Positions 3,256 through 6,016 of a DNA stretch of 10,743 nucleotides are shown piece by piece. The position numbers and the translations under genes are program-made. The stretch's first letter is position 1. Each line of letters opens with the position of its first letter. Under the pieces are notes generated by a model. The model was given only the letters and a program-made list of their open reading frames with translations, searched no databases and had not been told where the DNA came from. Source of the stretch: Candidatus Altimarinota bacterium (GTDB taxonomy: Bacteria; Patescibacteriota; Gracilibacteria; GCA-2401425; JAJOLG01); assembly GCA_021129445.1 (NCBI GenBank), contig JAJOLG010000072.1, forward strand, positions 1 through 10,743, given 5' to 3'.

Positions 3256-3840
3256 TTATTTTCAATAAAAAATTTTTACCTGTTGAGTTAAAAATTTTTC
3301 TCAATTTTTAGAAATATTTTGTAAAATTTTTTCATCTGGCAAAATTTTTTTTACATCAATTTTTTCAAAATTTTCAAAATCAAAAAGTCATTTTTTTAAA
3401 TTTCAAAAATAAAAAATTTTTTCTTCTCACAAAAATTTTTTTTCCAAATCTCCTCTCAAATAAACCTTTTCCTCTCAATTTATCAAAGTAAAAATTTCAG
3501 AATTATTTAATTGTAAAAAAATCGGCACCAAATTTTGAGTTTTCATCGCAAAAAATTTTACGGTTGAGATGGAAAATAATTTTATCGATGAATTTTGATT
3601 TTTGAAAAGGTTGGCGATCACAGCAGAAATTCTCATTGACATAAACCTTCAAGGTCAATTGCAAAAAAATATTTCTGCAATTTCTTCAAGTTTTAAATCA
3701 TTTTTTTTAAAAAAATCAAAAATTTTTTCATTCTCATTTTCTCATTTTTCAATCTCCAAAAGCTGTTCATTTTGAAAATCTTCATTAAAAACTTTTATCA
3801 AAGTTTTTTCCAAACCCGGCAAAAAAAATATTTTTTTCAT
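3256..3840 (-). CDS. tsaB: TsaB-like t6A tRNA-modification protein (YeaZ family)
   Basis: TsaB is a non-catalytic partner of TsaD, the enzyme that attaches threonylcarbamoyl to A37 of ANN-decoding tRNAs. It has the ASKHA-type fold and dimerises with TsaD. Here the protein is 194 residues, shorter than the E. coli protein (about 230). The diagnostic segment lies at residues 50-98: LEEIAEIFFCNGPGRFMSMR, then ISAVIANLFKNQ and LFSISTVKFFA. This matches the family pattern in which a 'vGPGSFTGLRIG...KGLA' helix is followed by a 'vsSLeala' strand. Its GPG glycines include TGA codons. The Ser of GPGS is Arg and the TG of FTGLR is MS, which is divergent. The ATG overlaps the stop of the SIS gene (TAATG), suggesting coupled translation. 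No tsaD, tsaC or tsaE is in the window. The 89-residue gene follows after 18 bases. Confidence 0.75.
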
Positions 3841-4775
3841 TATCAAAAAATTTTTGTTCATTTTCAAAAATCCGAATTATTCAAGTATTCAACATATTTT
3901 CAAATACTCTCTCTAAAAAAATCCGGCATTTGCTCCTGAATTTTTCAGGAAACAAAATATCACAAAAATAAAATTCAAGCATATCAAAAATTTTCTGGAA
4001 TTTGAATTTCAAGCTCTTCTCAATTAAAATAAATTTCCAAATTATCCAAAACTTTTTCAGTTCAAAATTTTATTAACAATTCATTTTCTGAAACCACAAC
4101 TGAACATGCATGCTTTAATTCTTCAAATGTTTTAATATCTCTTGAGATTTTTCTTCAAAAAAGCTCGATAAATTTTGTATCAATCATACCTGATGCAAGT
4201 CAAAATTCTGATGGTAAAGCAAACAAAAATCAGTTAAATTTCGTAAAATCAAAATCTCACAATCAATCCTCTAACTTAGTTAAAAATTCCAAAATTTCTT
4301 GTGGATTTTCTCAAGTTACTCACAAAATCCATCACAAATAAGTTGAAGTATTATAAGTGTAAGGCTCAGGATTTTTCTTTGTAATCACACAATTTTCCCT
4401 TCAAATAATCTGCTCAGTTTTTGAATTTTCCGTGCAAGTTACAAGCTCAATTTCGTATCATTTTTCCTTAAAAAATTTCGCCATAATCGACGAATGTTTT
4501 CATCAAGAAGCACTTAAAATCGTTATTCCATCAATTCATTCAATTTCCAAAATTTTCTCAAAATCATTTTCCGTTGCAAAAATATTTTCTGGATTTTGAA
4601 ACAAAATTTTTCATGCCAAAATCGCATTTCAAGATCAAATTATCGCTCTTTTTTTAAAATTTTTAAATTTAATTTTTTCTGGTTTCTGCTCAGAAAATAG
4701 CTCCAAAGCTCAAAAAACTACTTCTTTCAAAGATGGCAAATTATCTTCTGAAAATTTTTTTTCTAAATATTTCAT
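3840..4775 (-). CDS. SIS-domain protein, probable sugar-phosphate isomerase or binding protein
   Basis: The 311-residue product has the two-lobe SIS (sugar isomerase) layout. The first lobe has a strand and glycine turn AIIGSGNAILAGKIL (residues 44-58). It then has the phosphosugar-binding loop ILSASGGKHSSIMAKFF (86-102), the expected 'iSxSGxs' strand-loop-helix, followed by EIELVTCTENS (109-118), which corresponds to the 'vi.iT' strand. A TSTYLGWILG helix follows. The second lobe contains RDIKTFEELKHA (212-223), like the 'eeFlHG' segment of isomerases, and a closing strand-helix unit. The length and double domain fit GlmS-isomerase-like proteins or the PGI/PMI type (PF10432). Substrate residues cannot be assigned. 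Most glycines in the loops are TGA. An AT-only hairpin ends six bases before the ATG. Its stop shares a base with the tsaB start. Confidence 0.7.
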
Positions 4776-4781
4776 TTTTTA

Positions 4782-4815
4782 AAAATTATTTTTTCACAAT
4801 TAAAAAAATAATTTT
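4782..4815 (-). repeat. 13-bp AT-only inverted repeat just upstream of the SIS gene start
   Basis: The arms AAAATTATTTTTT and AAAAAATAATTTT pair perfectly around an eight-base loop. On the minus strand the downstream arm ends six bases before the ATG of the SIS gene. It has no adjoining U-run of its own, so it is a poor intrinsic terminator. It may be a leader hairpin that affects ribosome access, or part of a two-hairpin transcription-attenuating spacer together with the one at 4821-4840. Confidence 0.6.
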
Positions 4816-4820
4816 CAAAA

Positions 4821-4840
4821 TGGCAAAAATTATTTTGCCA
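4821..4840 (-). terminator. inverted repeat overlapping the SLH-like stop codon, possible weak terminator
   Basis: The arms TGGCAAAA and TTTTGCCA flank a four-base loop; together they are a perfect 8-bp stem. The TAA of the SLH-like frame (4830-4832) sits at the loop. On the minus strand the stem is followed by ATTTTG and, after some 15 bases, a T-run that is part of the next hairpin. It could end transcription from rsmA weakly, but it is not a textbook terminator. Confidence 0.45.
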
Positions 4841-5048
4841 AATCCGCATATTTTTCAAAATTAAAAACCAATTGTGCCACATCTCACCTCGTCAAAAAAT
4901 CTCATGGCTTCAAATATTCCAAATTTTCAAGCAAATTATTCCTTTTTGCAAAAATTAAATATTCCAAATACCACAATTTTGTGCGATATTGAGCAGTTTG
5001 AAATTTATAAGTTTTTGACAAAATTTTCAAAGCTTCTGCAAAATTTAT
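4830..5048 (-). pseudogene. orphan S-layer-homology-like C-terminal fragment, in the -1 frame of rsmA
   Basis: This frame encodes 72 residues, [16 protein letters not shown] to FNFEKYADLAK. It fits the tail of an SLH-domain protein. [10 protein letters not shown] resembles the 'iTRaEalkil' end of one repeat. KLWYLEYLIFAKRNNLL, then LKPGDFLTRGDVAQLVFNFE, resembles the Trp-to-TRgE body of the next. SLH domains normally anchor surface proteins to the cell wall. The frame has no ATG, and its open part begins inside the end of rsmA. If ribosomes slip back one base at the AAATTTA heptamer beside the rsmA stop, it would be appended to RsmA. The other explanations are a remnant of a deleted surface-protein gene, a sequencing indel, or a start at a near-cognate codon. 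An SLH tail on a cytosolic methyltransferase is odd, so I favour a remnant while noting the frameshift signal. Confidence 0.55.
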
Positions 5049-6016
5049 AAATTTTCTTCATCAATCTCAACTGCAATCTTTTCCAAATCAATAAATCCAA
5101 ATTTATTCTTAATCTCCTGCACCAAAGCATCCCATTGAGGAATCGTCAAAGCCTGTGGTCTCAAATCTCACGAAACACCTGTTTTTTCAAAAATTTCTTC
5201 GGCTTTTTTTGGCCCCATTTGACGATATTTTGCCAAAGTATTTGAAATTTTTTTTCTTTTTTCAGAGAAACAATTATGAATCAAGTCCCAAAACATCGGT
5301 AAATCTTTTTTTTCAATCAAAGGTTTATCAAAAACTTCAATTTTTAAAACCGCAGAATCCACATTTGGTGCTGGGAAAAATTTTTCCCTCGTAATTTCAA
5401 GCTCAATCGAAGGTTGTCAAAAAACCAAAACTTCAAGCGATAACACTGACATATTTTTTGCTTTTTCACAAATTCTCTGTGCAACCTCTTTTTGCATCAA
5501 AAAAACAAGTCTTTTTGGTGGATTTTTTGCAGTGATAAAATGACGAATAAGCGGTGAAGTAAGGTAGTATGGAATATTTGCACACAAAATATATCAAGGT
5601 TTTTCTGGAATATATTCAACTGCATTTTGATGCAAAATCGTCAAATTTTCCGGCTCCTGAGTCGAATATTTCAAAACCGGAATTACGGTTTCATCAATTT
5701 CCAAGGCTGTCACAGATTTTGCTTTTTTTACCAAAACCTGAGTTAAAACTCATGGTCCAGGTCAAATCTCAATCACATCATCATCCTTTGAAATCTCAGC
5801 AGAATCAATAATATCCTCCAAAGCCATTTTATCAATCAAAAAATTTTGCCCCAGATTTTTTTTTGTATGAAATCAAAATTTATGCAAAGTGTCTCTCAAA
5901 AATTTTTGCCCAGTCAAAGATTTTATCTCTCAATCGTCTGTAAAATCTTTTTTTTGAGAAAATTTTTTGAGTTCAAATTCTTCTTTTGAGAGTTTTTTTT
6001 TCTTTTTTTGGAACAT
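5045..6016 (-). CDS. rsmA: 16S rRNA (adenine-N6,N6)-dimethyltransferase RsmA/KsgA
   Basis: RsmA dimethylates two adjacent adenosines in the 3' hairpin of 16S rRNA (A1518 and A1519 in E. coli) using SAM, late in small-subunit assembly. The product is 323 residues. The family hallmarks occur in order: [12 protein letters not shown] (residues 52-63), SAM motif I VIEIGPGPGVLTQVL (81-95), the acidic ALEID at 104-108, the catalytic [10 protein letters not shown] (147-156), and [10 protein letters not shown] with [14 protein letters not shown] (213-226). The C-terminal helical domain has [14 protein letters not shown]. The second and last glycines of GPGPG are TGA-dependent, which by itself supports code 25. 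The first 45 residues are an extra lysine-rich extension compared with the usual family start. A -1 shift at the end would append an SLH-like tail. It is separated from the upstream coiled-coil gene by a terminator. Confidence 0.96.
5048..5054 (-). other. candidate -1 slippery heptamer at the rsmA stop
   Basis: On the minus strand the last codons of rsmA read GA-A AAT TTA TAA. A AAT TTA fits the X XXY YYZ pattern of -1 frameshift sites and lies directly before the stop. After a one-base slip the next codons are ATA AAT TTT GCA, which open the SLH-like frame. AT-rich DNA makes such heptamers common by chance, and I see no strong stimulatory structure immediately downstream. Confidence 0.3.

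Follow-up and report, generated by a model that had tools for sequence, protein, structure and literature searches.

An S-layer-homology gene fragment adjoining the 3' end of rsmA in a TGA-recoded Gracilibacteria genome

Genes and features at the locus

The window under study, a stretch of 10,743 nucleotides, lies on one contig (C24) of an assembly of 672,893 bases in 77 contigs that is 94.8% complete. The genome has a GC content of 25% and reads TGA as glycine: most of its genes are open only under table 25, and TGA makes up 84% of the glycine codons in genes of at least 150 residues. Code 25 has been established in Gracilibacteria (PMC6851277). Neither prfB in the genome nor a tRNA-Gly(UCA) among the 27 tRNA entries listed was found. 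For comparison, the nearest genome available was the only one of the same order (G001), all others being more distant members of the class; a search for relatives of the contig itself returned one match, a distant one.

The features discussed are collected in Table 1. RsmA is a full-length member of its family, matching PF00398 with an E value of 1.6e-50 and TIGR00755 with 206 bits (cut-off 171), residues 50-301 aligning to model positions 2-255 of 256; matches to rsmA were found in 39 of the 40 genomes searched, its own genome counted. The gene ends in GAA GAA AAT TTA TAA. Its last residues (302-323, about 22; 5045-5110, reverse strand) extend past the end of the KsgA model and make the protein longer than the relatives inspected, most homologues stopping some 10-20 residues earlier.

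Table 1. Features around the 3' end of rsmA.
Feature	Position	Strand	Description
rsmA (ksgA)	6016-5045	-	323 aa under table 25; stop TAA at 5047-5045
Upstream open part of the S-layer-homology (SLH) frame	5055-5102	-	overlaps rsmA, without SLH homology; from frame and profile alignment
Heptamer A AAT TTA (AAATTTA)	5048-5054	-	directly before the rsmA TAA; first codons of the SLH-homologous stretch
Probable 3' remnant of an SLH-protein gene	4830-5054	-	74 codons; end of one repeat plus one complete divergent repeat; TAA at 4832-4830
Earliest potential start codon (TTG) of the SLH frame	5028-5030	-	66 codons; no visible signal peptide
Two adjacent perfect A+T-rich hairpins past the fragment	4781-4840	-	8 bp (SLH stop codon at the loop), then 16 bp
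Peptide from the SLH fragment frame			NNLLENLEYLKPGDFLTR
Sequence with the candidate frameshift site			GAAGAAAATTTATAAATTTTGC

Although long, the 270-nt gap that follows rsmA is not unusual (10% of co-directional gaps), and the spacer gave no RNA match in Rfam. Relative to rsmA the -1 frame is open from 5102 to 4830. As the first-pass annotation had stated, this frame contains no ATG. Its first TTG, at 5030, sits about 15 nt past the rsmA stop; at its upstream end there is no ATG or GTG able to start it either.

Beyond the frame, the hairpin stretch folds with a z-score of -4.8, none of 200 shuffles being as stable, while a simple terminator scan of the region found none; the hairpins possibly represent the 3' end or the terminator of a lost SLH gene. 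The next gene downstream (3840-4775, reverse strand) encodes a 311-residue protein which has no match above cut-off in Pfam or NCBIfam and no relative in the 39 other class genomes, and which resembles, by eye, a sugar-phosphate isomerase of the SIS type.

SLH homology and coding signal of the downstream frame

The 74 residues encoded downstream (hereafter the tail) had been described as the end of an SLH array, a description that our searches uphold. Searched directly against the genomes of the class, the tail has matches in 114 of 288 at E<=1e-4, the best at 4.7e-13, and among the matches listed nearly all lie within ORFs of several hundred residues. Representative proteins so matched carry PF00395, making the tail homologous to the ends of bona fide SLH repeats. 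In addition, a class-level SLH profile was built from 34 matches, each with 45 residues of upstream context; it scores 76 bits against the extended frame, where 1000 shuffles reached 8 bits at most. Since the tail was used to find its members, the profile is in part circular and its score overstates independence, a fault of which the single-genome E values are free. The SLH profile search suggested with the initial description succeeded in one form and failed in the other: the class profile detects the tail, whereas Pfam SLH (PF00395) gives no match to the 74 residues even at E=10; NCBIfam returned nothing for them. In this lineage, divergent repeats at the end of an array can escape the Pfam model.

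In the profile alignment, which opens at base 5054 (residue 17 of the frame) and spans profile positions 44-114 of 124, the tail corresponds to the C-terminal one and a half repeats of an SLH array; the exported arrangement of about three repeats in tandem is absent here, with neither a start upstream nor a signal peptide. Of 21 columns that are conserved in 20 or more of the 34 relatives, the tail keeps nearly all (about 20/21); the departures are F for Y at position 64, a clear change, and D for the commoner E at position 58. One of the two TGA codons of the tail falls on a glycine found in 34/34 relatives.

The coding signal is also preserved. In codon score the tail, with 36.9 bits, stands at the median of real genes and above all samples read in a wrong frame, and an open frame of 74 codons would arise by chance at this base composition in 8% of cases; the fragment is therefore little decayed. 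It contains no stop and no frame-breaking indel, and codon preference, which at first favors the rsmA frame, favors that of the tail from around the rsmA stop onward. Given a codon score at the real-gene median and a TGA on an invariant glycine, we conclude that the fragment was formerly translated in this lineage.

With frame and conserved residues intact, and a TTG so near the rsmA stop, the tail might be read as a separate small gene, initiated at TTG 5030 or at a near-cognate codon and coupled to rsmA termination, whose product would be an SLH-like protein of 66-74 residues. Such a protein would be without a signal peptide and would miss the initial one and a half repeats, and in the 114 genomes the segment nearly always forms part of a much longer ORF, at least among the matches listed; we consider a small gene very improbable.

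The heptamer before the rsmA stop codon

The sequence bears out that A AAT TTA adjoins the rsmA TAA, a slippery heptamer in frame immediately before a stop (A AAT TTA TAA), and the arithmetic offered for it is correct: a -1 slip would add 72 codons (ATA AAT ... AAA TAA at 4830), 323 + 72 = 395 residues. Formally, heptamer and frame match the bacterial programmed -1 frameshifting that takes place at X XXY YYZ (PMC4066793). A living extension of RsmA into a 395-residue RsmA-SLH protein would find further support in the open SLH frame with its conserved residues intact; nevertheless, the following observations make it the least credible of the readings considered, and an extremely improbable one.

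Within genes of this genome, in-frame A AAT TTA occurs 398 times, in 211 of 417 genes, against 166 occurrences expected from codon frequencies, over twice the expectation; therefore the heptamer is not avoided in genes, and one would scarcely expect such abundance of a site that shifts strongly. No significant stimulatory structure was detected downstream of the heptamer (fold z-score -0.8, with 40 of 200 shuffles as stable, in a model that does not cover pseudoknots). A -1 frame open for at least 70 codons past the stop is also found in 58 of 409 genes, probably because that stretch often belongs to the following gene. Moreover, in a survey carried out in E. coli, A_AA.U_UU.A appears neither among the heptamers selected as shift-prone nor among those listed as most efficient (PMC4066793).

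Nor is the arrangement conserved: heptamer and -1 frame do not recur together in the orthologues, and at all 29 other rsmA loci, which belong to distant relatives, rsmA ends without an SLH frame, none being found within 900 nt downstream. The comparison of this junction across relatives, proposed at the outset, thus goes against an extended RsmA. A cytoplasmic methyltransferase devoid of a signal peptide would, in addition, be unable to use a surface SLH tail.

Programmed frameshifting at the end of rsmA is accordingly left unsupported by heptamer frequency, folding and the E. coli motif survey. Unlike established programmed sites, this one has neither stimulator nor conservation, and its motif is common in ordinary genes and foreign to the selected shift-prone set; the frameshifted methyltransferase with a surface tail put forward by the first-pass annotation is not sustained. 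Taken jointly, a living frameshift product or a small gene would still be improbable, and we strongly doubt that the fragment is translated today, be it as an RsmA-SLH fusion or as a short rsmA-coupled peptide, and kept by selection.

Nature of the junction and likeness to known systems

SLH homology begins abruptly at 5054, three codons before the rsmA stop, which therefore lies within SLH-derived DNA. It is homology to the 3' part of longer genes alone, as in a gene remnant. The possibility that the final 22 residues of RsmA are themselves misread SLH DNA was discarded: the profile match does not extend upstream of 5054, and the codon signature of the rsmA frame remains positive until near the stop.

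The other SLH genes of the genome were checked and were found to be long and separate, the clear SLH proteins measuring 221-1087 aa. One SLH gene on contig C18 (L086, 6262-7410) is broken by a run of N, after which its frame looks shifted, an assembly gap. Across the whole assembly (77 contigs) the tail is the sole SLH piece without a 5' part; a matching 5' part was not found anywhere in it, nor was any 5' half of an SLH gene present at a contig end. No rsmA-SLH junction was found in IMG/VR contigs. At the junction itself, AAATTTATAAATTT (5041-5054) forms a perfect palindrome, and a second copy of TTATAAATTT lies about 40 nt onward (5008-4999); both are possible short repeats, probably due to chance in A+T-rich DNA.

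These data favor what the first-pass annotation had called the sober alternative, in which a deletion fused a degraded surface gene to rsmA: the stretch 4830-5054 is probably the 3' remnant of an SLH gene joined to rsmA in that way. We infer a deletion (or an equivalent rearrangement), recent and leaving a fragment without function, with its breakpoint near 5054 within the gene of an SLH surface protein. Promoter and signal-peptide region would have been lost with it, as would one and a half SLH repeats at the start of the array, and the remaining 3' part would have been joined to the 3' end of rsmA, which would now end at a TAA inside SLH-derived DNA, where the SLH frame reads I-N. The fragment probably lies on the rsmA mRNA and would not be translated into a useful product. 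An intact frame and conserved positions fit either a young loss or continuing selection; with codon usage, frame and about 20/21 conserved positions all intact, the truncation is most likely young.

The main rival to a gene remnant is an assembly join, in which the contig would either place rsmA wrongly against an intact SLH gene's 3' end or collapse a path of strain variants. An assembly in 77 contigs, about 95% complete and having a different SLH gene (C18) broken by a run of N, could harbor such an error, and no close relative confirms the junction; however, no long repeat across it is common to other contigs, the matches being short or weak and A+T-rich, and the assembly, contig ends included, does not contain the missing 5' part. 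We regard a misassembly as unlikely, although less so than any form of living product.

The gene remnant reading is thus retained, and the finding is of small import beyond annotation: a real yet ordinary remnant explains a suspicious "slippery" gene end in a TGA-recoded genome of 25% GC. Were the fragment expressed, it would give an rRNA methyltransferase a tail of surface type, a genuine oddity.

Among known systems, the closest likeness is to SLH (PF00395) proteins of the same class, for instance L052 on contig C6 of genome G025 and L043-L045 on contig C1 of G001, which share with the fragment the pattern WYxxY..A...NLL....P...TRG(D/E) and the preceding repeat end I-N-x-A-E-A-L-K. In G001, three tandem SLH proteins match the tail (L043-L045, + matches); the same segment forms their C-terminus, and they stop no more than a few residues away from the stop of the fragment. 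These same-class relatives are long, with at least two Pfam SLH repeats, whereas the fragment, which has neither a start nor a signal peptide, retains just the final one and a half.

As regards its position, the fragment may be compared with the 3' gene remnants and truncated pseudogenes located in the spacers of reduced bacterial genomes; spacers with decaying pseudogenes in such genomes are described in PMC3164680. There, likewise, a once-coding piece follows an intact housekeeping gene; in contrast to those spacer pseudogenes, the fragment downstream of rsmA is little decayed, its frame and nearly all of its conserved residues being intact.
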